A stretch of 24,331 nt of DNA, from IMG/VR virus record IMGVR_UViG_3300043499_000052, positions 1 to 24,331 of that record, one strand, 5' to 3'. Of this stretch, positions 3,576-22,007 are shown in pieces. Made by a program: the position numbers and the translations under genes. The stretch's first letter is position 1, and each line of letters starts with the position of its first letter. Under the pieces are notes generated by a model. The model searched no databases, was not told the DNA's origin, and saw only the letters and a list, made by a program, of their open reading frames with translations. The DNA comes from a virus.

Positions 3576-4452
3576 GGCGGTATTCCTTGGTTACCAGCCC
3601 GTTGACGTACTTCCCCCGCGCATGCGCTGGACGCCAAAACGTACCAACGTCGCGGCCAAACAACGGTCTGTCCTCTGTGTACGTTGCATAGTTACCGCGG
3701 ACCATATGCAACGCGGTGGTGTTGTCGCCGGATCTTTTCGACCCACCGACGCTCGCCGGTCGGTCAAGTCCAGGGATGTCGATAACGTGATGCTCATACC
3801 GCCACGGGTGCCGGTGGCGCTTCCGTGGGTCCCCTCGTGTCACCGGACGCGTCGATACGTTGCGACAGTGCATAAGCGCTAGCGTGTCCAGCGTCCAGCC
3901 CGTAAAGATCTCTGCTGTTTTCTCTAGCGAACCAGCGGGCCACCATTTCTGACCTTGCGCATCCATCACAATGGTTTGCCACACCGCTATGCCAGTGCGG
4001 TCATACCCCACCCCTATCGAAATTCGGGGACTCACAACGAATCCCCGACTGCTATCGATAAACACGGTGCCTATCAGGACACCGACCACATTGGAGGGAG
4101 GGTTGGCTTCCGGACCAACCTTGAACCGACTCATCCCGCTACTGAATTCAGATACGGGGATGTCCTGAAAGCAGCTTGCGACCCGTTCGGTTGCGCCTGG
4201 ACGCGCGTCAGGCGCTACTACCTTGTGATGCTCAATCCACATGAGACTGTACGGAGGACGTACGGCAATCGCGGGGTCACGGTCTGGCACCCACCCATAG
4301 GTAACAACTTTCATCGCACCGGCTATGCCGCGAGCGTTAGCAACCTCCGCCAGAGGTGTTCGCTCGGTAATCATGTTGCCGTTAGCGTCCGGCCCCACAA
4401 CGTCAACGCCGTTGACGATTCGCCGGTACAGGAACCTTTCCCCGTCACCCAT
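3562..4452 (-). CDS. conserved phage protein of unknown function
   Basis: 296 aa, ATG 4452 overlapping the previous gene by 8 bp (ATGGGTGA). No enzyme signature is recognised. The middle is beta-rich (VVGVLIGTVFIDSSRGF). The C-terminal third carries HMVRGNYATYTEDRPLFG, then VGTFWRPAHARG, a pattern I recall from other actinophage proteins of unknown role. A basic stretch (RGDPRKRHRHPWRYEHH) precedes it and could contact nucleic acid. Its position between the small recombination-associated gene and the Cas4-like nuclease suggests a DNA-metabolism job. That is context only. Confidence 0.6.
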   Translation of the reverse strand: MGDGERFLYRRIVNGVDVVGPDANGNMITERTPLAEVANARGIAGAMKVVTYGWVPDRDPAIAVRPPYSLMWIEHHKVVAPDARPGATERVASCFQDIPVSEFSSGMSRFKVGPEANPPSNVVGVLIGTVFIDSSRGFVVSPRISIGVGYDRTGIAVWQTIVMDAQGQKWWPAGSLEKTAEIFTGWTLDTLALMHCRNVSTRPVTRGDPRKRHRHPWRYEHHVIDIPGLDRPASVGGSKRSGDNTTALHMVRGNYATYTEDRPLFGRDVGTFWRPAHARGKYVNGLVTKEYRHDNT

Positions 4453-4792
4453 CGTCCCGCGCTCCCCGGTGCTTCCCCACCAGCGTGAGGGACGTCGCGG
4501 TGTTGTCCTTTCTGTACTGTGCGAACAGCGCCGGACGCTCAGCGGTAAACCGCGCGATGTCGATACCGCGCCTGACAGCCACGGTGAGCTTCACCCGTGG
4601 TTCGTGGTCCACCAGTCCAAACACCACGTTGTTGTCCCGCAGGAACGCAATCAGGGTGTCTCGCGCCTTGTCCGCTTGCTTGGCGTGGTACTTCACCCGT
4701 TCGCGTTCCACGGTGTAGACCCGTAGCGCTTCCACCATGTCCGGCGGTAGCTCTACCTCTGCCATGTCCTCGTATTCCTCGTCCGCATCCAT
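4445..4792 (-). CDS. small hypothetical protein, possibly recombination-associated
   Basis: 115 aa, ATG 4792 with an AGGGAGTATCCACA initiation region shared with other genes here. The N-terminus is acidic (MDADEEYEDMAEVELP), the middle is a helix (LRVYTVERERVKYHAKQADK), and the C-terminal half (RRGIDIARFTAERPALFAQY followed by a Lys-rich Ser/Thr tail) resembles small proteins encoded beside phage exonuclease/recombinase genes. No catalytic residues are evident. The co-transcribed Cas4-like nuclease two genes downstream supports a recombination context, but function is not established. Confidence 0.6.
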   Translation of the reverse strand: MDADEEYEDMAEVELPPDMVEALRVYTVERERVKYHAKQADKARDTLIAFLRDNNVVFGLVDHEPRVKLTVAVRRGIDIARFTAERPALFAQYRKDNTATSLTLVGKHRGARDDG

Positions 4793-4804
4793 TGTGGATA
4801 CTCC

Positions 4805-5116
4805 CTATGCCGCGGGCTCGCCTTTCGACAAGCGTCCATATGAGGCTGCCGCCCGGTTTACGTCCACATCGGACATCACGTACGGCTGGTCCAGGGACTC
4901 AAGTCCTGGTATCACGGGCTGTACCCAGTCGGGCCGCGCGTGCTGAGCGATGTAGCGGTCAATCTCGGACTGGCTGATGTAGACGCGCCAACCTCGTTTG
5001 TTGTAGCGGATCTCTCTGTCCCGCAATGCGCGTTCCAGTGTGGACATTGAAATGCTTAGCGCCTGGCATGCCTCGGTTCGTGAGTACCAACGCTCACCGC
5101 CGATCGGCTTAGGCAT
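4805..5116 (-). CDS. excisionase-type helix-turn-helix protein
   Basis: 103 aa, ATG 5116 with CTAGGGGGTTCAC upstream. Residues 9-58 fit the MerR/excisionase HTH_17 pattern: WYSRTEACQALSISMSTLER, a basic wing (REIRYNKRGWRVYIS) and a terminal helix (EIDRYIAQHA). The C-terminal 40 residues are unlike the family and could mediate contacts. It is the first gene of the leftward early operon. Two roles fit: recombination directionality factor for the nearby integrase, or early-operon regulator. Serine-integrase directionality factors are diverse, so the Xis-like fold alone does not prove excision. It is also a candidate to bind the dispersed palindromes, which is speculation. Confidence 0.72.
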   Translation of the reverse strand: MPKPIGGERWYSRTEACQALSISMSTLERALRDREIRYNKRGWRVYISQSEIDRYIAQHARPDWVQPVIPGLESLDQPYVMSDVDVNRAAASYGRLSKGEPAA

Positions 5117-8296: not shown

Positions 8297-8659
8297 TCAG
8301 CGGGCTACAGCCACCACGGGACCATCCCCGGTAGCCCACGCGGTCCCGTTCCAGTGCCGGTGAATGCCATCACCGGTGATCACGTGCTGTCCCACGGTCC
8401 AGAGCGTGGCGGGACTCGCGGTGATGCCAGCCATGGCCGCAGCGTTGGCGGGGACCACGCATCCCGCTGGTGTGAACGTTCCGGGGGTTCCCGCTGTTGC
8501 GCCGGTAGCGGGGATGTCCGGCGCGTTGGGGTCCTCATCGGTGTAGCCGATACCGGACGGGTCCGCGTATTGGCGTGGCACGGCTGTCTGCGCCGCTGCG
8601 GTACCGGCGCCGGTGCCTAGGTGTTGCGGGTCTGGACTGTGTGTGAGTGGACCGGACAT
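8297..8659 (-). CDS. small tail-tip protein with a W-TGQ mini-domain
   Basis: 120 aa, ATG 8659 with GGAAGGAAACCAGGC upstream. Residues 1-60 are Pro/Gly/Thr-rich and probably disordered. Residues about 62-113 (PAGCVVPANAAAMAGI, then LWTVGQHVITGDG and HRHWNGTAWATG) match the mini-domain that occurs twice at the C-terminus of the major tail protein. Being last in the tail operon, it is probably a small structural or decoration protein of the tail tip. The mini-domain has the aromatic, Gly-rich look of a carbohydrate-binding module, an inference. The first bases overlap a 19-codon ORF (8617-8676) that carries the shared initiation element. Confidence 0.62.
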   Translation of the reverse strand: MSGPLTHSPDPQHLGTGAGTAAAQTAVPRQYADPSGIGYTDEDPNAPDIPATGATAGTPGTFTPAGCVVPANAAAMAGITASPATLWTVGQHVITGDGIHRHWNGTAWATGDGPVVAVAR

Positions 8660-8702
8660 GCCTGGTTTCCTTCCATTGTGGACGCTCCCCGGGTGGGACC
8701 CG

Positions 8703-9518
8703 TCAGCCTGACGCGGCGGTGGGTGAGTACTGGAATGCGTGGACGTAGACGACGGTACCGCCAGAGGAACCAGCCTGGTACTCGCGGCCAACAATCTGGA
8801 CACTGGCCGCTGTAGCGCCGCCGCAGGTAGCGAGAACGTTTGAGTTGTTGGCGGTGACCACCACGATGGGTGGCACGGTGAACCGTCCAGCGGGGAAGTT
8901 GCATTGAACCTGCGAGAACCCACCAGCCGCGATGGCGGGGAGGTTCGCGATTCCGAACCACGAGGCAAACGGAACGTTGCGGATAACCCCGCCTGTCGGT
9001 CCAATTGCGACAGACCCGTCACGGTTGATACGGAACCGGTTGACCTCCACCCCGTTCTCAATCAGTGCAATCGCAATCTGACCACCGGACATGAGATAGA
9101 CGCGAGACTCTATCTGGTCCGGTGCGAACAGTCCACGGATACGGAACGTGTCCCCGGTGTCAGTGTAGTCACCCATGATGAGGTCACTATGGAGCGACAG
9201 CGCACCGTCAACCTCTAGCGTGGACAGAAAATGCGACGCCAGGCTGGCCGTACCACCGTCCCATGTGGACGAGCCACCGACACCAGCGGTGATGACCGCA
9301 GCGACGCTATCGAACGTAGCCAACAACGCGGATTCGCCAACGGCAGGAACACCACCGTAGAACGGCAACGCGTCGACAACCTCCCCGCTGCCATCGTCCA
9401 CACTGCACATGAGCGTCACGGGGTCCACGGCGGTGACCGTACAGAAACGCATACGCGCGCTCAGCGGGTCACGCGCTAACGCCACCAGCTGCTCAAAGGG
9501 GTTCTGCGGTCCGGTCAT
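8703..9518 (-). CDS. tail-tip spike / receptor-binding protein
   Basis: 271 aa from ATG 9518, which overlaps the previous stop as ATGA; a longer in-frame start at 9563 lies inside the hub gene and is less likely. Residues about 20-75 (RFCTVTAVDPVTLMCSV to VPAVGESALLATF) look like the OB-fold of gpV/gp5-type baseplate spikes. The centre is repetitive beta structure (FRIRGLFAPDQIESRVYL, FRINRDGSVAIGPTG), as in intertwined fibre stems. The end (GGFSQVQCNFPAGRFTVPP to VVYVHAFQYSP) resembles the H-type-lectin-like beta sandwich of small phage tail-tip proteins and also resembles the 121-aa gene at 11201. Together these indicate a membrane-facing spike with a glycan-binding head. Confidence 0.65.
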   Translation of the reverse strand: MTGPQNPFEQLVALARDPLSARMRFCTVTAVDPVTLMCSVDDGSGEVVDALPFYGGVPAVGESALLATFDSVAAVITAGVGGSSTWDGGTASLASHFLSTLEVDGALSLHSDLIMGDYTDTGDTFRIRGLFAPDQIESRVYLMSGGQIAIALIENGVEVNRFRINRDGSVAIGPTGGVIRNVPFASWFGIANLPAIAAGGFSQVQCNFPAGRFTVPPIVVVTANNSNVLATCGGATAASVQIVGREYQAGSSGGTVVYVHAFQYSPTAASG

Positions 9519-11200: not shown

Positions 11201-11566
11201 TCAGCCCAACGGGATGGCGAGCCAGTACGCCTGATAGGTGTTGGACGATGGATTGATGCGAGTGAGGTTCATAGTGAACCCCGTCGCGTCGCTACCGGTC
11301 ACGGATGCCCACGTGGTCGCGTTCCTCGCGGTAGCCATCACCACCGGGGTTGCTGCGTAGGGTCGCGGGTAGTTGACGCGCACGCTTGCTGTTGCTGCGT
11401 TTGCGAACACCACCGACGCGTTGCCAGTCTGAATCGAATCGTCCAACGTAACCATGTTGGTCAATAGGTCAGAGGCTAGCTGGGTCATGTCTGCGGGGAT
11501 GTCAGCTACGTCCGTCAGGTCTGGCACCGTGGCGGAATAGATTCCCTTGGTTACCTTGTGGCTCAT
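11201..11566 (-). CDS. small tail-tip protein with H-type-lectin-like domain
   Basis: 121 aa, ATG 11566, two bases after the preceding stop; the ribosome site is weak, so expression probably relies on coupling. Residues 1-45 are helical and could trimerise. Residues 50-121 (SVRVNYPRPYAATPVVMATA, then TGFTMNLTRINPSSNTYQAY and WLAIPLG) match the beta-sandwich pattern 'RPF..P.V....ATGF.......YWLA' of H-type-lectin-like domains in phage baseplates. A related fold seems to end the 8703-9518 protein. Likely receptor-binding or baseplate accessory. Confidence 0.58.
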   Translation of the reverse strand: MSHKVTKGIYSATVPDLTDVADIPADMTQLASDLLTNMVTLDDSIQTGNASVVFANAATASVRVNYPRPYAATPVVMATARNATTWASVTGSDATGFTMNLTRINPSSNTYQAYWLAIPLG

Positions 11567-12414: not shown

Positions 12415-14576
12415 CCGACCTGAACCACCTTCCGCGTAGTCAGACCGCGTACCGCCGTGGTGGCCGCGTTGCGTACCTGGACATTGATGAGGTCCGACAG
12501 TCGCCGGTCCTGGACCTGGACCACAACCTGTGTCGCGGGACCAGCCAGAGCGCTAGGCATCCCGGGGAGCGCGTTAAGGCTGGTGTGACCTCGTGGCGCG
12601 GCCAGCGTGACATCAGGGAACATACCCAGACCCCGCGCGGCCATCAGCTGCGAGTCCGCAAAGGACTGTTGTCCGATCGGCTGGTAACCCTGTGGCGCAG
12701 ACTGTGGCGCGGACTTAGTGCCACCGCCACCAGCGGGACCAGCGGACCAGCCAACCTCGCTGCGTTGCAACTTGTCCAACAGCCGTTTGTCCTCGTTCTC
12801 CGCGAGGTTGATAGCGATTTGGACTTGCTTAGGGTCCGTCAGATCTGACAGCCCGCGCCGCGCGGCATCCAGTCCGAGCAGCTGAACGTCCGTCTTGAGC
12901 TTGTCCGGGGTCTTGAGGAGAGTGTCCACATAGTCCTTTGCCTCAGCCTCAGTCATGCCGAACTGTTGCGCCATAGCCATAAGCGCCTGGCGCTGCTTGC
13001 CATAGTTCGTGAGGATGTCCGCTGTGGACTTACCGTTGGCCCGCGCGTCTTCCAGCTGCGCGGTAGTCAATGCCTCAATCGCTTCCGCCTGACTGTCCAG
13101 CGCCTCCTGGTTCGCGCGGCCCTTCTCGGTGCTGGTGTCCAGCGTCTTTCCGTTTGTTTTCAACGCCTCTTTGAGCTTGTCTAACCCCTCCTCGTAGTTG
13201 CGCGCAGCCTCGCGAGCGTCCAGCGCGTTTCCATTGAGGATGTCCAGCTTTTGGGTCAACCCCTCCACACTCTTGCGCGCCTCGTCCGTCGCGTCCGCGT
13301 AGGCAGCCCAGTCTTTGCTAGCGGCCAGCGCCATAGCGGCAGAGTCGTTAGACGCTGCGGTGGCAGGCTTGGTTACCGCTGTCAATTCCTTGGTGCCGTT
13401 GATCAGCTTGTCAAACTCTTTGACCAGGTGAGGGATGGTGAACACTGGACCGACGAGCAACCCCGTCAATCCACCCTTGACGATGTCGTTAGCCAGGATC
13501 TTGTTTAGTGTCCCCAAAAACTGGTTCAGCATCGGATTGATGACGGAACCCATCTGGTCACCGAGCACAGACATGTTGTCGTTCAATGTGGACATCTGGC
13601 CATTGACGCTCGCCGCTTGCTCGCTGATGGAGTTGGGGAACATCGCGCCTAGCTCTTTCCCCATAGCCTCAATCTCGGTACGGGTGAGCTTTCCCTGGCT
13701 GGCTAGTTCCTGTAGTTCGGGGATGTTCTTACCGGTGGCTTTGGCCAACGCCTCCCACGCGGGTACGCCACGCTGCGTCAGCTGTAGCATGTCCTCCGCG
13801 TTCACCTTGCCACGACTCAACATCTGGCCATAGATGAGCGCAACATCCTGGATCGGCACCGACGTGGCCGCAGCCACCGCGCCTAGGTCCTTCATCGTTT
13901 TCAGTAGCTCCGATGAGGACACACCCATACTGACGAGGATCTTTGCGGTGTCGACCAATTCGGGGAACTCAAACGGTGTGGTGTTACCAAATTCCTGGAT
14001 GTCGCTGAGAATCTTGTCGACGTCCCCGCCGTCGCGAATGACATTCTTCAATGCGATGCGCATGGTTTCCATGCTCGCGGCGGTCTGGCTGGCCTTGACC
14101 TCTAGCGCTCCCATTGCAGCCACAAAACCCAGCGGACCCAGACTCTTGGCAGCAGACAGCCCGCTGAACCCCGCTGCGTCCGTCGCTGCGGTCAATCCCG
14201 CTAGCTGCGCTTTGGCCCGACCAAAGCCAGTTACCTCCGGCTCGATCTTTGGGTCCATCCTGTCCAGCTGTTTGACCGTAGCCTCAAGCTGACGTAGCTG
14301 TTTCTGAGCGTCCTTTGTGTCCACACCCATGACCACGCCACGCGCGATCTCGTCGCGGAGAACGGCCATCTTTGCTTTGGTGGCCTTGATTGCCTCGTCC
14401 CGCACCGTGACTTTGACTGGCGGAATCTTGGTGTTGGCCAACGCGTCAAGTTGCTTGTCTGTCTTGCCTGCCGCCGCGCCGAGCTTGTCAAGCGAGGTGA
14501 TCGCTGGCGCGAGTCCAGTTTGGACACCCTTGCTGTCCGCGGTGACACCGATCGTAATGTCATTGCTAGTTGCCAC
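12411..14576 (-). CDS. tail tape measure protein
   Basis: 721 aa, GTG 14576 overlapping the HK97 gp10-like gene by 11 bp. The conserved tape-measure domain is at about 200-305, with landmarks IQEFGNTTPFEFPELVDTAK, LVSMGVSSSELLKTMKDLGA and LQLTQRGVPAWEALA. Flanking parts are Ala-rich helices and coiled coils, with hydrophobic segments around 345-385. At about 0.15 nm per residue the length predicts a tail of roughly 100 nm. It scaffolds tail-tube length and is ejected with the DNA. No muramidase or peptidase domain is visible. It follows the chaperone frameshift pair, separated by one unexpected gene. Confidence 0.92.
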   Translation of the reverse strand: MATSNDITIGVTADSKGVQTGLAPAITSLDKLGAAAGKTDKQLDALANTKIPPVKVTVRDEAIKATKAKMAVLRDEIARGVVMGVDTKDAQKQLRQLEATVKQLDRMDPKIEPEVTGFGRAKAQLAGLTAATDAAGFSGLSAAKSLGPLGFVAAMGALEVKASQTAASMETMRIALKNVIRDGGDVDKILSDIQEFGNTTPFEFPELVDTAKILVSMGVSSSELLKTMKDLGAVAAATSVPIQDVALIYGQMLSRGKVNAEDMLQLTQRGVPAWEALAKATGKNIPELQELASQGKLTRTEIEAMGKELGAMFPNSISEQAASVNGQMSTLNDNMSVLGDQMGSVINPMLNQFLGTLNKILANDIVKGGLTGLLVGPVFTIPHLVKEFDKLINGTKELTAVTKPATAASNDSAAMALAASKDWAAYADATDEARKSVEGLTQKLDILNGNALDAREAARNYEEGLDKLKEALKTNGKTLDTSTEKGRANQEALDSQAEAIEALTTAQLEDARANGKSTADILTNYGKQRQALMAMAQQFGMTEAEAKDYVDTLLKTPDKLKTDVQLLGLDAARRGLSDLTDPKQVQIAINLAENEDKRLLDKLQRSEVGWSAGPAGGGGTKSAPQSAPQGYQPIGQQSFADSQLMAARGLGMFPDVTLAAPRGHTSLNALPGMPSALAGPATQVVVQVQDRRLSDLINVQVRNAATTAVRGLTTRKVVQVG

Positions 14577-15039
14577 GGTTGGCCGCCTTGACCACAGCTA
14601 CCTTGATGCGCTTGCGGACGCCTTTGAGGTCCAGGCGCACCGTTGGCCAGAACCAGTAACCGCGCGTGCCTAGGAACGGGTGAAACTGTCTGGTGGTATG
14701 GCGCTTGACCACGTACGGGAGTCCCTTGCGCGAGCGGGTCACGTAGGCGCGCTTAGGACGTCTGCCACCGCCGTACTCAGCACCCTTGGTGAGTACACCC
14801 CCTAGCGTTCCTGACCCGCCAGCGTGCGCTCTGGCACCGTTTTTGAGCGTGGATACGCGGATGGTGCGGGAAGCAATCGCGGGGATGCCACCAAGCCCAC
14901 CGGCGCGCCTACGCATGTCGCGGGCCATCGGGGTGACCTCCTGTCGCGTGATGTGGTCCACCGCCGCAACCTGGACCACGCTAGGCATGCGACGCAGCCG
15001 GTTGACCACCGTGTCTAACCCCTTCACCGTGATGCCCAC
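14566..15039 (-). CDS. HK97 gp10-like head-tail/neck protein
   Basis: 157 aa, GTG 15039 directly after the TGA of the frameshifted chaperone product, with GAAGCGAGG upstream. The N-terminus (ITVKGLDTVVNRLRRMPSVV) and the C-terminal HPFLGTRGYWFWPTVR are typical of HK97 gp10-like proteins; the rest is very basic (many Arg/Lys/Gly). Members normally lie between the connector and the tail terminator. Here the gene sits between the chaperone and the tape measure, so it is displaced. The missing slot upstream fits a simple relocation. Confidence 0.72.
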   Translation of the reverse strand: MGITVKGLDTVVNRLRRMPSVVQVAAVDHITRQEVTPMARDMRRRAGGLGGIPAIASRTIRVSTLKNGARAHAGGSGTLGGVLTKGAEYGGGRRPKRAYVTRSRKGLPYVVKRHTTRQFHPFLGTRGYWFWPTVRLDLKGVRKRIKVAVVKAANRGN

Positions 15040-15515
15040 TCACTGCCTCGCTTCCATTGGCCACATGCGCGCCAGCTCTGTCTCTAGCTCCGCTTCCGTC
15101 TGTACCCGGGGAGCGTCCACTGGGGACGGTTCCGTCAGGATGTCGATGTACGTCGCTACTACGTCCGGACCTTCGCTTTCGAGCGCGGACGGGAGGCAGC
15201 CGACCCTGAGCGCGAGGTTGACGAGGGAGCGTCCGTAGCTCCCTCGCGGGTAGGGTTTCCGACCAACGTGGGATTAGGAATCCCTCGGACCTCCACCGCG
15301 TGTACGTCAAAGTCCTTATAGGACGCGAACCGGTCCCCGTACACTCCTAAGCGGACAGCGGCCAGATAGGCAATCTGCGCGGTCTGCGTATAGCTCAGCG
15401 GGGTACTGAGCCACGACTCCCCGTACTCTGCCTCCCATGCGCGGATGTCGCGCGCGTCCTGGTCAATCTCAGTGACGGTGCCATCGTCCAGCTCAATCGC
15501 GAATCTCTGTCTCAT
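15040..15515 (-). CDS. tail assembly chaperone, -1 frameshift (G-T) product
   Basis: Joined product: residues 1-88 as in the short form, then a -1 shift at AAACCCT (plus-strand bases 15252-15258), then 70 residues in the new frame ending at TGA 15040-15042, about 158 aa. The heptamer reads A AAC CCT in the zero frame, fitting X XXY YYZ. After the shift the frame is open and reads YPRGSYGRSLVNLALRVGCL, a natural helical chaperone extension, ending ELETELARMWPMEARQ. Long tailed phages typically make a G and a G-T product in a fixed ratio just before the tape measure, as here. Frameshifting itself is predicted. Confidence 0.75.
15159..15515 (-). CDS. tail assembly chaperone, short (G) form
   Basis: 118 aa, ATG 15515 with GAGGGAGTATCCAC upstream. 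The domain is small: RFAIELDDGTVTEIDQDARD, then IRAWEAEYGESWLSTPLSYT and a helix AQIAYLAAVRLGVYG. The last ~25 residues of the zero frame are a low-complexity Ser/Arg/Lys tail that reads like a run-off past the slippery site. It acts with the longer form to coat and fold the tape measure during tail assembly. It is placed after the major tail gene and a strong hairpin. Confidence 0.8.
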   Translation of the reverse strand: MRQRFAIELDDGTVTEIDQDARDIRAWEAEYGESWLSTPLSYTQTAQIAYLAAVRLGVYGDRFASYKDFDVHAVEVRGIPNPTLVGNPTREGATDAPSSTSRSGSAASRPRSKAKVRT

Positions 15516-15607: not shown

Positions 15608-16504
15608 CTAGGCGTGCGCTCCCGCTGCCCACGCTGTACCGGACCAGTTGAAATCGAACGTTCCCACTGTCATCTTCTGGCCCGTGGTCCAGGCGGTGAG
15701 CGGGGATGCGACGTAACCCAGACCAGCGAGCTTTGCCGCGTTGGTGGAATCGCTCGCGGTGATGGTGGCTTCCGCTGGGAAGACGTCCCCCGCTTTGGCT
15801 GCGGACTTCACCGGCGGGGTGGGAGCAACGATGTACGTAGTCCCGTTCCACGCAGCCTTTGACGCGTCGCCTAGGACCACGTACAGACCCGTTTCCCATG
15901 CGGTGGTGGGGTTCGCGGTGAGTCCCGCAGCGTTCAGTGCCGCGAGATCTGCCGGCACCGGCGCACCGGTCGGACCGATGTACCCCGGCGCACCAGCGGT
16001 AGCCGTGGCCGCCACGATGACCAGCGGCGCGCCGCTAGCGTCCACAATGCTGTACTTCCCCTTAAGCGGGAGAGTCGCGGTGAACGTGGCATAGGCGCCG
16101 GACGCTGCGTTACCCACGTTGTCCGGCGGGGTGAACGTCACCGTACCGGTGAACCCGTAGCCCACCGGACCGCCAGCCTTGTCGACCCGCGGGTAATAGA
16201 TGAACGTCCCTTCCTCCCCGTCATGCTGTAGGAGGAACATGACGAGACTGTCCAATGTGGTGAAGTCCTGGACACCGGTGATGGCGAGTTGCCAGACCCG
16301 TTCCGCGTTCTCGCTGAAACTCCCCTCAGGACAGAGCGTGGTAAGCGACACCGCGTCACCACCGGTCGAGGTGAGTCCAGCCTGAGTTACCTCACACTGG
16401 AACGTGTGGACCATGCCATCCCGGTCCGTCACCTCAAGCTGAATCCATCGAACGAACAGCGGGTCTACGGAAATGCCCGCTGCGGCTAGCGCTGGTGCTG
16501 TCAT
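15608..16504 (-). CDS. major tail (tube) protein with two C-terminal W-TGQ mini-domains
   Basis: 298 aa, ATG 16504 with AAAGGACAGCAGC upstream. Residues 1-165 are the tube domain: FVRWIQLEVTDRDG, AVSLTTLCPEGSFSENAER, FTTLDSLVMFLLQHDGEEGT, GYGFTGTVTFTPP. Residues 183-227 and 250-297 are two copies of a ~45-residue module ending in W-x-TG, V.G and WnGTxY/W. This module also occurs in the small tail-tip gene at 8297. The modules probably project from the tube surface as decorations, as immunoglobulin-like domains do in other siphoviruses. They are joined by a Gly/Pro linker. The tube assignment is secure from order; the decoration role is inferred. Confidence 0.82.
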   Translation of the reverse strand: MTAPALAAAGISVDPLFVRWIQLEVTDRDGMVHTFQCEVTQAGLTSTGGDAVSLTTLCPEGSFSENAERVWQLAITGVQDFTTLDSLVMFLLQHDGEEGTFIYYPRVDKAGGPVGYGFTGTVTFTPPDNVGNAASGAYATFTATLPLKGKYSIVDASGAPLVIVAATATAGAPGYIGPTGAPVPADLAALNAAGLTANPTTAWETGLYVVLGDASKAAWNGTTYIVAPTPPVKSAAKAGDVFPAEATITASDSTNAAKLAGLGYVASPLTAWTTGQKMTVGTFDFNWSGTAWAAGAHA

Positions 16505-16531: not shown

Positions 16532-18250
16532 TTAGAAGTAGGTGATGACTTGCACGAATCCGTCGCCACCCTTACCACCCGCGCCGGAATCAAAGCCATT
16601 GACGCTGGCTCCACCTCCACCACCTCCACCGCCGCGTAACCCGTCACCGCCTTTGCCACCAGCGCCACCGCTACCGGCGCCACCGCCAGAGCCACCAACG
16701 CCAGGGAGCATCGGCGCGGCGGGAGGAACGATGATGTCCGAAACACCATCACCGCCGACCACGCCACCGACCCCCGCACCGAAACTTGTGTAGTTCCATA
16801 GCTCAGGTCTGCGGATACCCGCGCCACCGTTGCCAGGGACGTTGCTTGCGGGCATGCCACCGCCACCACCACCGCTGGACGCGCCGGTAAGCGTGGTGAT
16901 CAGACCAACCGCGCCAGCGCCACCGGTTGCGGTAGAGGCTCCCCCCGCGTTGGCACCGGGGACCGCTGTTCCACCGGCGCCGCTGTTCACCGTCCCGCCA
17001 AAGCCAGAGAAACCCTGTAGACCGGTCCACGTATCGCTAGCGCCTGGACCAAAGCGCGTTGCTGAGCTAGTGCCACCGGGGTTCCCGTTCGTGTCATCGG
17101 TGGTCACCGCCGCGCCACCAGCGCCACCAGCGCCAACCGCGCCGTTAACCACGGCAGGCAACGCCGATGATGGAATCTCGCGCAGGATGCCCGCGCTACC
17201 CGCGCCACCACCACCGCCTACGCGAATCGTTCCAGCGGCACCCCGCCGACCGGACCCACCGCCACCGCCTCCACCTTGGACAATGATGGTGTGCGAGGTT
17301 GCTCCCGCTGGTTTGGTCCAGGTGAACGCGCCAGGCGTGGTATACGTGTCGATCTGTGGTGGCTTGACGGTTGGCTCTGGACCGATCGGACCTTGTGGAC
17401 CCGTCGCGCCGGTATCGCCTTTGACGCCTTGCGGACCTTGTGGACCGGCCACGCCTTGCGGTCCAGCTGGACCCGTGGCTCCGGGCTGTCCTTTGTCGAC
17501 GAACAGATCCCACGCTTCTGGGTGGGTCGGTGACGGAAGGTTGGTGTTAGGCGCGGTGGCAATCCAGACCGCACCGCCGTAGTCCACAATGTCGTCAACC
17601 GCGTACGCGGTGGCAAAGTCCCACAGCCCGCGCCAATTGACACCCTCTGGTCCAGCTGGACCGGTAGCGCCGGTGGCACCGTCCACGCCATCCGTACCGG
17701 CGGGACCGGCGGGACCGGCTGGACCAGCCTCGCCAGTCGGTCCGGGGTCGCCTTGCGGTCCCTCGTCGCCAACCGGTCCAGCGGGTCCCTGCGGGCCGAT
17801 CGGTCCGGGGGGTCCCTCAGGTCCAGGTGGACCAGGTAAAGACGCTGGTGGCGGGTTAGGACGGGGTGGAGCTACCCCCGCGCCACCGCTGGTGGGGTAA
17901 CAGACGGACGCTCCCACGAGGCAATGAATCACGTACGCGGGGTAGCTCTGCTCACTGATGGTGGCCACCACGGGTTCCACGCGGACCACCGCGACGTCCG
18001 GACCGCGCAAGAGGTTGACCGCGACGTCCGCGAGGCTGTCAAGCTCCACCTGTGCGTCCTCATCGGACAGACGGCGGCCGATAGCCCACACAGGGACAGC
18101 GAATTGCATCAGCTGGACGTCCACGTCAAGCGTCGGCTTAGCCACCACGTAGCACGGGACCATGTTGGGGTCATCGGGGTGATAGGTCCACGTTTCCGTC
18201 CCTGAATGCCGCAACGCTTCCGCGAGAGCTAGGCGAATCTCCTGGATCAT
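16532..18250 (-). CDS. tail-terminator-like domain fused to collagen repeats, sugar-binding-like module and Gly-rich adhesin domain
   Basis: 572 aa from ATG 18250 (ATGA overlap with the connector stop; an in-frame GTG at 18262 is less likely). Residues 1-118 look like a tail terminator/head-tail joining protein ([20 protein letters not shown] to [11 protein letters not shown]). Residues 139-202 are Gly-X-Y collagen repeats. Residues 205-252 ([20 protein letters not shown], then [10 protein letters not shown] and AWDLF) resemble a CBM5/12 chitin-binding-type module. Residues 254-291 are a second collagen stretch. Residues 300-572 are a glycine-rich domain ([20 protein letters not shown], then poly-Gly), as in phage adhesins. 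Tail terminators are usually about 130 aa and end there. The gene lies exactly in the terminator slot between connector and major tail, so the adhesin should emanate from the neck. Confidence 0.75.
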
Positions 18251-18609
18251 CCGATACCCCACACCCAGCCAGCATCGACGTAGTGCTCTATCAGCCGTTC
18301 CACGTCGGGGTCACGGGACACCACAATGGACACACCCATCTCCGCGAACCCCGTAACCCCCTCCGGCGACTGCCGACGCTTGTAGAGCCGCGCGGCCAAC
18401 ATGAGTACCGCCTGGACCACGGCGGGTTCCTGGACAAACTGAGAATGCACGCGGTCATAGACCCACGTCCCCGCAGCGGCCAGACACATGCCCAACAGCG
18501 CATCATCCTTTGTGGTCTGTGAGCCGATCATCTTTTTGAGTTGGTCCAGTCCTGCGCGCTCACCGCCTCGTGGCGCGCCGGGGGGTGGTGCCGGGGTGGG
18601 GTACGTCAT
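18247..18609 (-). CDS. head-tail connector (gp6-like) protein
   Basis: 120 aa from ATG 18609 (AGAGAGG eight bases upstream); an ORF start at 18660 lacks a comparable site. After a Pro-rich leader the protein shows the helical adaptor pattern: [20 protein letters not shown], then [20 protein letters not shown] and [13 protein letters not shown]. These fit the phage gp6-like connector family that docks under the portal. It is coupled to the downstream fusion gene by ATGA. Confidence 0.75.
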
Positions 18610-18665
18610 TGCGCTGCCTCTCTTGTGGACGGGGGTGACCACGTATGCGGCCGTGGCCACCCCCT

Positions 18666-18712
18666 GGTCCCCTGATCGCGGGGGGTCAGCCCGGGGACCG
18701 TCCTAAGGGGAC
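18666..18712 (-). terminator. hairpin after zinc-ribbon gene, with adjoining palindrome
   Basis: GGTCCCC (18666-18672) pairs with GGGGACC (18693-18699), with an inner TGA/TCA pairing, right after the zinc-ribbon stop. The adjoining GTCCTAAGGGGAC (18700-18712), ending on the stop codon, is an inverted copy of the dispersed palindrome at 2030-2042. Without a T-tract this may be an attenuator that lowers transcription after the capsid group. Confidence 0.45.
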
Positions 18713-19035
18713 TACTTGGGTTCCCCGGTTTCCGGCAGCTCGTTGTCCGGTGTGGACGGTTGGCCGCCTGGCAGCGTGTTGTCCGGCAGATCCGGGGGGA
18801 ACCCCGTGCTGGGGTAGACCGGCTGTCCAGGCAGCGAGTTGTCGGGACGGTTCGGCTGTCCTGGCTGTCCAGGCAGACCGTGTCCGGGGTAAACCGGCGG
18901 GGTCGGCAAACCGTGGCCGGGGTACACCGGACCACCGGGCAGCGAGTTATCGGGACGTCCGGGGTGTCCGGGGTTCGGTAGCGGCTGCCCGCAGTCTGGG
19001 CACTTGATTTGCTGTCCGCATGTTTGGCAGTACAT
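18712..19035 (-). CDS. zinc-ribbon protein with Pro/Gly repeat tail
   Basis: 107 aa, ATG 19035 with GAAGGAGAGCC upstream. Residues 1-19 hold two CxxC pairs (CQTC, CPDC), a compact zinc ribbon. The remainder is a disordered tail of imperfect repeats around RPDNSLPG, PVYPGHGLP and PDNTLPG. Similar PDNxLPG/PGxGLP tails occur in phage structural regions with no known function. It follows the capsid gene, so a capsid-associated or assembly role is conceivable. It overlaps the preceding small gene by 89 bp in another frame. Confidence 0.62.
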   Translation of the reverse strand: MYCQTCGQQIKCPDCGQPLPNPGHPGRPDNSLPGGPVYPGHGLPTPPVYPGHGLPGQPGQPNRPDNSLPGQPVYPSTGFPPDLPDNTLPGGQPSTPDNELPETGEPK

Positions 19036-20543: not shown

Positions 20544-20816
20544 TTACGGTGTTGCCTCTAATGCGTCCAGCCGCGCGAGGATGTCGGTTAGCTGGGTCTG
20601 GATATCAGTGATCGCGGATTGATTAACCGCGATGTCCTGGCTCTGTGTGACGTCCACCGCCTTGATAGCGGCCACGTCAGCCTCTAAGTCCCCCAACCGG
20701 TCCAGGATGGGGAGCAGATCCGGCGGGGTTCCTCCGGCTGGTGGGGGGATGGGTACCGACAACACCAGCGTGTCGCCAGTGTCCACAACGGCCAGACGTT
20801 CGTCATACGCTGACAA
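20544..20816 (-). CDS. small coiled-coil protein of the head region
   Basis: About 90 aa from TTG 20816, chosen because GGGGAGG stands eight bases upstream; an in-frame GTG at 20858 would add 14 residues but has a poorer site and a longer overlap. After a short beta part and Pro-rich hinge (LSVPIPPPAGG), residues about 35-88 form a heptad coiled coil (LLPILDRLGDLEADVAAIKA to LTDILARLDALEATP). Possible head-fibre or capsid-accessory trimer. No catalytic features. Confidence 0.55.
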   Translation of the reverse strand: MSAYDERLAVVDTGDTLVLSVPIPPPAGGTPPDLLPILDRLGDLEADVAAIKAVDVTQSQDIAVNQSAITDIQTQLTDILARLDALEATP

Positions 20817-21336
20817 GGGAAGCGCCTCCCCACGGAATCTCGTTCCTGGACTCACCACGGATCACCGACAGGGACCCCTCTGCCAGGCGCGTCCAGCCGG
20901 TGGACACTGTGGACACGTACAGATCCCACGGCCACGTACCGGTGAACGCGGAATAGAGGTCCGTGACGTCTGCGGGCTGGTGGACCCAGAGTTGAGTCCC
21001 GCTGTCCTGTGTGTACGTCGGGAGCTTGTGACGGGTTTCCAGCGAGGTCCAGGCGCACCGCGCACCGAGTATCGGCGCGGCCACCGCAGACATCACCGTT
21101 TCGTCATCGGGTAGCCAGAGCTTTGGCTGCCACCAGAGTCCCTGTCGGAACGTGAAAGACGTACCGCCACCCTGATGGACCACCGAGTGGACTAGCTCCG
21201 GTACGCGGTCCAGGTAGAACCGTTGGCCCACCACCACGTCCTGAGACTTCACCGGCGCATCGGGCTGGTACAGCGCGAACCCCTGTAGGAAATCGGTCCC
21301 CGTCTCTATCACGAGGTCTACCGCAGCTGCTCTCAC
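20803..21336 (-). CDS. head-region beta-sandwich protein, unknown function
   Basis: 177 aa, GTG 21336 overlapping the protease stop (GTGA). The pattern (ETGTDFLQGFALYQPDAP, then a beta-rich middle and WPWDLYVSTVSTGWTRLAEG, SLSVIRG) resembles the small domain of phage structural proteins that starts 'GdtF...' and ends 'YDL.v...G...rL..G...V', known at the base of head fibres and BppU-type baseplate proteins. With the coiled-coil gene after it, a head-decoration or fibre-anchor function is plausible. No specific family is claimed. Confidence 0.55.
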   Translation of the reverse strand: MRAAAVDLVIETGTDFLQGFALYQPDAPVKSQDVVVGQRFYLDRVPELVHSVVHQGGGTSFTFRQGLWWQPKLWLPDDETVMSAVAAPILGARCAWTSLETRHKLPTYTQDSGTQLWVHQPADVTDLYSAFTGTWPWDLYVSTVSTGWTRLAEGSLSVIRGESRNEIPWGGASLVSV

Positions 21337-22007
21337 CGCGACTCACCCAGCGACGCTCGCACCGCGCGTTCAGCGGGACTAGCTTGCATCCGCGCGAGAT
21401 CTGCCCGCAACGCGTCCAGCCGTGGGGTTCTGGACCCCGCGTTAGCCCGCTCTGCTGCCTCCTGAGCCATGATCAGCGCTTCCGTGCTGTCCAGGTCACC
21501 CCCGGCGCTCTGCGCGTCCCTGGCGTACATCAGGGTGGCACCGACGTAGGCGGGTTCCTCCACCGCCGCAACGTGGTCCACGTAGACGCTCAGCCGGTCG
21601 ATAACCCCGTCATAGGCCAACCGGTCCCGCAGCGAGTAGTAACCCAGCGACAGACCCTTGTGGGTGGACGTGAGGACGTCCAGCGCGCGCTCATAGATGC
21701 CACGGTCCAGGCGGAACCGTGACCACGCTCCGTCCTGACGTTCCTCTAGCGCCACCCCGTGGCCCAACCGGTTGGTGAGGTTGCGGTGGTCATGTCCGTA
21801 GTAGAGGACTACCCGATGCCACGCCTTTGCCGCACCGGCCATAGAGCCGTACGGGAACCGCTCACGCTTGTGTAGTCCGTCCTCGTGGAAATCGACTACC
21901 TCGCCATACGGGACCACTCGTCCATACGCCTCGTGGGTCCGCTCGTCAACGTCGCGAATCTCCAATGTGGATGCGAAATCACGACGGATGAGTTTGCGCT
22001 CTGTCAT
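21333..22007 (-). CDS. prohead maturation protease (HK97-type)
   Basis: 224 aa, ATG 22007 overlapping the portal stop (ATGA). The HK97/S78 serine-protease order is visible: YYGHDHRNLTNRLG with the catalytic His (near 75), GLSLGYYS with the nucleophile Ser (near 139), then DHVAAVEEPAYVGATL, the usual C-terminal motif of the fold. After it comes a helical tail of about 55 residues (LDSTEALIMAQEAAERANA) that could be a self-cleavage or scaffold-binding segment. It would cut the delta domain off the capsid protein. Position between portal and capsid is standard. Confidence 0.88.
   Translation of the reverse strand: MTERKLIRRDFASTLEIRDVDERTHEAYGRVVPYGEVVDFHEDGLHKRERFPYGSMAGAAKAWHRVVLYYGHDHRNLTNRLGHGVALEERQDGAWSRFRLDRGIYERALDVLTSTHKGLSLGYYSLRDRLAYDGVIDRLSVYVDHVAAVEEPAYVGATLMYARDAQSAGGDLDSTEALIMAQEAAERANAGSRTPRLDALRADLARMQASPAERAVRASLGESR

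Follow-up and report, generated by a model that had tools for sequence, protein, structure and literature searches.

The structural gene module and the terminator fusion

The window, which is the record of an uncultured tailed phage analysed over its whole length of 24,331 bases, carries a structural gene module on its minus strand. The gene order is terminase large subunit, portal, prohead protease, a 177-aa protein, a 104-aa protein and the major capsid protein, continued on the same strand by a Pro-rich protein, a connector, a 576-aa frame, the major tail protein, a chaperone, a Neck1-like protein and the tape measure. The terminase, protease and tape measure were named from their position and from reading of the sequence. 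The genes relevant to this analysis are listed here.

21333-22007, minus strand: prohead protease, by position
20803-21336, minus strand: candidate LtfC-like fibre adaptor in the head module (phrog_1084, E 0.08)
20544-20858, minus strand: 104-aa coiled-coil-like protein without a family match, encoded where lineage L077 has a collagen fibre
18247-18660, minus strand: head-tail connector, a gp6-like adaptor (Pfam Phage_connect_1, E 2e-6; phrog_5938, E 3e-17)
16532-18250, minus strand: terminator-collagen-CBM-like-collagen-Gly-rich fusion, 572 aa from ATG, or 576 aa from a GTG at 18262
15608-16504, minus strand: major tail protein, ending in two repeat modules (phrog_4574, E 2e-9; orthologues in relatives)
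15159-15515, minus strand: tail assembly chaperone homologue (hhalign to the chaperone slot of Arthrobacter and Gordonia phages, P 7e-6)
14566-15039, minus strand: Neck1/tail-completion-like protein (weak match to phrog_5, E 0.01; slot orthologues in relatives)

The initial annotation had placed the fusion gene in the tail terminator slot, after the connector and before the major tail protein. This was confirmed by the family matches of the flanking genes, and the same connector-terminator-major tail protein order was found in relatives. The ATG at 18250 corresponds to residue 5 of the GTG-started frame (16532-18262, minus strand), from which residues are numbered here. It shares an ATGA overlap with the stop codon of the connector (18247-18249), and is the likelier start of the gene. 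From this ATG the protein has 572 aa, with a computed mass of 54.3 kDa and a pI of 4.4. The full-length frame is unbroken in three contigs, the window and the IMG/VR contigs L002 and L003, and the gene showed neither an internal start with a Shine-Dalgarno-like sequence nor a frameshift by which the extension would soon be cut short. Frame and domain order were as originally described, with a terminator-like N-terminus followed by an extension of about 450 residues. The domains, all on the minus strand, are as follows.

17897-18250, minus strand: tail terminator domain, residues 5-122, by orthology, gene order and predicted fold
17834-17896, minus strand: Pro-rich linker, residues 123-143, beginning within a few residues of the ends of standalone orthologues
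17642-17833, minus strand: collagen rod 1, residues 144-207, with Gly at every third residue, 22 in succession
17492-17641, minus strand: CBM_5_12-like module, residues 208-257, below the Pfam cut-off
17375-17491, minus strand: collagen rod 2, residues 258-296, 13 Gly-X-Y triplets
16535-17341, minus strand: Gly_rich_2 domain, residues 308-576

Several neighbouring genes have features of their own. No stopper gene was recognisable between the gp6-like connector (18247-18660) and the major tail protein, and the neck of this phage may consist of portal, adaptor and terminator only. The major tail protein (15608-16504, minus strand) ends in two repeats of ~60 residues (AWTTGQKMTVGTFDFNWSGTAWAAGAHA), and a similar unit closes a distal tail-module protein (8297-9061, minus strand). 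One or two of these repeats are present in relatives, and lineage L127 bears the unit on another kind of major tail protein, so that it looks like a mobile decoration of the tail tube. Between capsid and connector lies a 107-aa Pro-rich protein (18712-19035, minus strand) that starts with CxxC...CxxC and contains repeated PDNxLPG motifs. A small distal protein (11201-11566, minus strand) has weak H_lectin and Gp53-like C-terminal matches and is likely a tail-tip lectin. The closest capsids to that of the window are from mycobacteriophages (33-34%), and a profile search of genome contigs with the terminator and capsid alignments yielded no prophage relatives.

Identity of the N-terminal domain

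Gene order, orthology and predicted fold together identify residues 5-122 of the fusion as a tail terminator. In twelve cultured Arthrobacter, Gordonia, Curtobacterium, Microbacterium and Pontimonas phages, a protein of 112-133 aa lies between the adaptor and the major tail protein, and is annotated as tail terminator in Rahul and as tail completion protein in phiPsal1. A profile of these slot proteins aligns with the N-terminal domain of the fusion (P 1.2e-4) and not with the other neck genes of the window, which match other families. The closest standalone orthologue found is the 118-aa slot protein of L024, an IMG/VR lineage with a connector 54% identical to that of the window, and it shows 48% identity to residues 5-121. 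Seven more lineages have a standalone slot protein (L025, L066/L121, L067/L119, L074/L116, L118, L122 and L127). In these eight same-family lineages the terminators are 117-140 aa long and occupy the identical gene slot, and the standalone orthologues all end within a few residues of the point where the Pro-rich linker of the fusion begins.

Structure prediction likewise pointed to a terminator. AlphaFold2, run on the N-terminal domain with 12 aligned sequences, gave a model with a pLDDT of 87.1 and a pTM of 0.80. The top five chains in a Foldseek search with this model comprised lambda gpU, the lambda tail cap and the R2 pyocin collar (E ~1e-4 to 7e-4), with an E value of 9.5e-5 for lambda gpU, and VIA-align gave Z scores of 10-12 against the terminators of GTA, Mu, T5, lambda and Bxb1. 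A prediction from the single sequence was uninformative (pLDDT 43), and a sequence profile of the domain gave only chance matches against the PDB. Searching 50,697 phage records by tblastn with the N-terminal domain and the L024 terminator returned nothing related, and tblastn with the whole fusion found nothing either, probably due to low-complexity filtering.

The extension and related fibre modules

The two collagen runs start at residues 144 and 258 and consist of 22 and 13 uninterrupted Gly-X-Y triplets; in 2,000 shuffles of the extension the longest run was at most 10 triplets. The Pfam Collagen family (PF01391) matched with an E value of 5e-10 and 39.4 bits, which is above the curated cut-off of 27.2. 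The Gly_rich_2 family (PF21722), with a cut-off of 24.3 bits, scored 23.5 bits on the whole protein and 25.5 bits in a six-frame search. A chitin-binding-like module, reported in the initial annotation, is indeed present between the rods, but its match to CBM_5_12 (PF02839; residues 214-243) scored 18.6 bits against a curated cut-off of 26.2, thus 'carbohydrate-binding-like' is the furthest label that can be allowed. This module also occurs in annotated fibre genes of other phages (≤46% identity, E 6e-6). The third-position G+C content is 0.59 in the extension versus 0.73-0.78 in the adjacent genes, which is consistent with an acquired module, and Gly/Pro codon choice may contribute to this difference.

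Comparison with relatives located the extension in the window lineage only, the terminator being standalone in all eight related lineages sampled, and the 34.5-kb L024 record contains no collagen or Gly_rich_2 match anywhere. Comparable modules were found in other lineages. In L110, the gene for a Gly_rich_2 protein of 362 aa, which includes a short stretch resembling collagen, is flanked by the portal gene and that of an LtfC-like (phrog_1084) protein, and the final 65 aa of this Gly_rich_2 protein are 89% identical to those of the fusion. L106 has an LtfC-like and Gly_rich_2 gene pair located after the portal, L007 a collagen-like and Gly_rich_2 protein between the portal and capsid genes, and L077, a member of the window's family, a collagen fibre after its LtfC-like gene, between protease and capsid. 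The Gly-rich domain had been described as usually located on distal fibres, a view that did not hold for the nearest modules found (L110, L106 and L007), which adjoin portal or capsid genes. Since the modules of these three lineages and of L077 lie in the head region, that of the window cannot be explained simply as the transfer of a distal-fibre part to the neck. The collagen and Gly-rich genes of L008 do not adjoin the portal in the stretch read, hence the fibre module is mobile and position alone proves nothing. In addition, a Drexlerviridae phage (L103, OL539451.1) has a collagen-like gene with a CBM-like module at 4016-4897, between protease and capsid.

Orthologues of the LtfC-like candidate of the window match phrog_1084 with E values of 4e-5 (L077) and 1e-4 (L073). 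Direct alignment of the candidate's family with those of L110 and L106 by hhalign was weak (P 0.02), and the link to these two lineages rests on the phrog_1084 matches of the orthologues. The candidate and the short coiled-coil-like protein in the next slot (20544-21336), which in L077 is taken by a collagen fibre, point to a system of fibres attached to the head or neck in this family of phages. Possibly, a fibre module of the head or neck type became joined to the terminator.

A putative neck fibre and its alternatives

Terminators assemble as hexamers on the proximal ring of the tail (PMC11784142), so six C-terminal arms would make at most two collagen trimers. On balance, we favour a model in which the fusion is the sole terminator of the phage and bears a C-terminal fibre, forming a hexamer with six arms that serves as an accessory neck adhesin. 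Six copies would assemble into the terminator ring that ends growth of the tail tube and docks the head. Each copy, if incorporated at full length, would bear a Pro-rich tether, two collagen rods flanking the CBM-like module, and a Gly-rich tip. Strands of collagen from adjacent or alternate subunits would then trimerise, so that at most two trimeric fibres arise where head and tail join. Such fibres could bind the host envelope, or some other surface rich in glycans, with low affinity and supplement the distal tail proteins as accessory adhesins, and the phage would then probably grip surfaces by its neck fibres as well as by its tail tip. The initial proposal of a neck adhesin is partly supported, by the terminator identity and the intact frame, and has to be changed in one detail, the usual placing of the Gly-rich module on distal fibres.

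Outward display of the fibre depends on where the C-terminus leaves the ring. In contractile relatives the C-terminal strand of the terminator extends out to the sheath (PMC10491603, PMC13324602), whereas in the siphophage T5 the C-terminus is located at the subunit interface and takes part in subunit contacts (PMC11784142). By analogy, outward exit in the fusion is plausible rather than proven. A T5 terminator with a C-terminal His tag formed aberrant fibres, and its authors raised the possibility that the tag folds inward, into the lumen (PMC11784142), so an extension of 450 residues could disturb assembly. An adhesive role can be inferred from the domain types and from lactococcal phages, in which two CBMs, one in the neck and one in the tail, bound host cells (PMC6669499). 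Against the favoured model stand the lack of a symmetric way to fit six chains into one collagen trimer and the occurrence of the extension in one known lineage only. To a more far-reaching version, in which the terminator is itself the host- or surface-binding organ, with one chain that caps the tube and projects trimeric collagen fibres, and with a module captured from the neighbourhood of an LtfC adaptor, we give slightly less than an even chance.

The same domain layout could also mean that the fusion is translated and then cleaved after the terminator domain, with the terminator functioning normally and the fibre joining the virion elsewhere or being lost. The Pro-rich linker (residues 123-143), starting near the ends of the standalone orthologues, would be a plausible flexible, protease-accessible joint, and the phage encodes, by position, a prohead protease (21333-22007). 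However, no separate start was identified and a freed collagen fibre would be without its only recognisable anchor domain, and we consider this course of events unlikely. About equally improbable is that the extension resides at the neck but has a structural or protective function, for example as a spacer or as a stabiliser of a neck without a stopper. Other phages of the family share the neck gene set but lack the extension, which is therefore dispensable for neck stability in these relatives, and fibre proteins typically contain CBM-like modules and Gly-rich tips. On the other hand, no stopper gene could be recognised from the connector to the major tail protein, the match to CBM_5_12 scores under its cut-off, and the neck collars of other phages can be fibre-less and may be structural (Milano, PMC10491603).

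Alternatively, the N-terminal domain could be a terminator-derived fibre anchor that has ceased to terminate tails, and the true terminator could lie outside the 24.3-kb record, which may be incomplete; in ceduoviruses the terminator gene is found outside the late cluster (PMC12474359). However, no second terminator gene was found in the 24,331-nt window, where the family profile of the relatives matches the fusion gene alone, and both slot and sequence are orthologous to the terminators of eight lineages, so the terminator assignment stands and we regard a fibre anchor as very improbable. That an assembly or annotation artefact fused the terminator to an unrelated fibre gene, conceivable in a metagenomic contig with repetitive collagen and glycine tracts, is hardly credible, since the base-identical 1,731 nt with the same flanking genes are present in L002 and L003, which speaks against a chimera of one assembly.

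The neck fibre model has parallels in several known systems. The NPS of lactococcal phage TP901-1 and of the 936 group also forms long multi-domain neck fibres with carbohydrate-binding modules at the ends (PMC6669499, PMC10747895). It differs in being encoded by a separate gene, with a BppU-like N-terminal domain modelled as a ring around the portal or adaptor and a coiled-coil stalk, whereas in the fusion the anchor would be the terminator itself and the rods collagen. Instead of the BppU-like β-sandwich, the N-terminal domain of the fusion has, by predicted model and orthology, an α/β terminator fold, and its CBM-like module, which is below cut-off, is internal, with a Gly-rich domain at the tip. 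Lambda gpU, SPP1 gp17 and T5 p142 resemble the fusion in gene position, length of the N-terminal domain and predicted fold, but are about 130-160 residues long and fibre-less. The collagen-like head fibre gp12 of SPP1 is a head-side collagen rod with a proposed role in host adhesion (PMC7602432), although fibres of this type are separate capsid-bound proteins without a terminator domain. The neck fibres of Anabaena phage A-1(L) and the whiskers of T4 are likewise located at the head-tail junction (PMC10966104), but they are held by separate neck proteins with no covalent link to the terminator. The LtfC-like adaptor and collagen/Gly-rich pairs of L110 and L106 share the Gly_rich_2 modules, but consist of two genes in the head module without a terminator fusion. 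Neck fibres (NPS, whiskers and A-1(L)) are already known, as are collagen fibres on capsids (SPP1 gp12) and terminators with extensions (phiCD508 and PVC16); no covalent fusion of a terminator with fibre domains came up in the open-access literature searched, which was of limited scope.

Phage adhesion has been studied mostly at the tail tip. If the favoured model is true, the fusion would represent a direct covalent route to neck adhesins that is new to the open-access literature searched. The symmetry of the ring would set the number of neck fibres, with six chains giving no more than two collagen trimers, and this would provide a defined test of the tolerance for symmetry-mismatched fibres. 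An essential assembly protein would in this way have become an adhesin scaffold through a simple end fusion.
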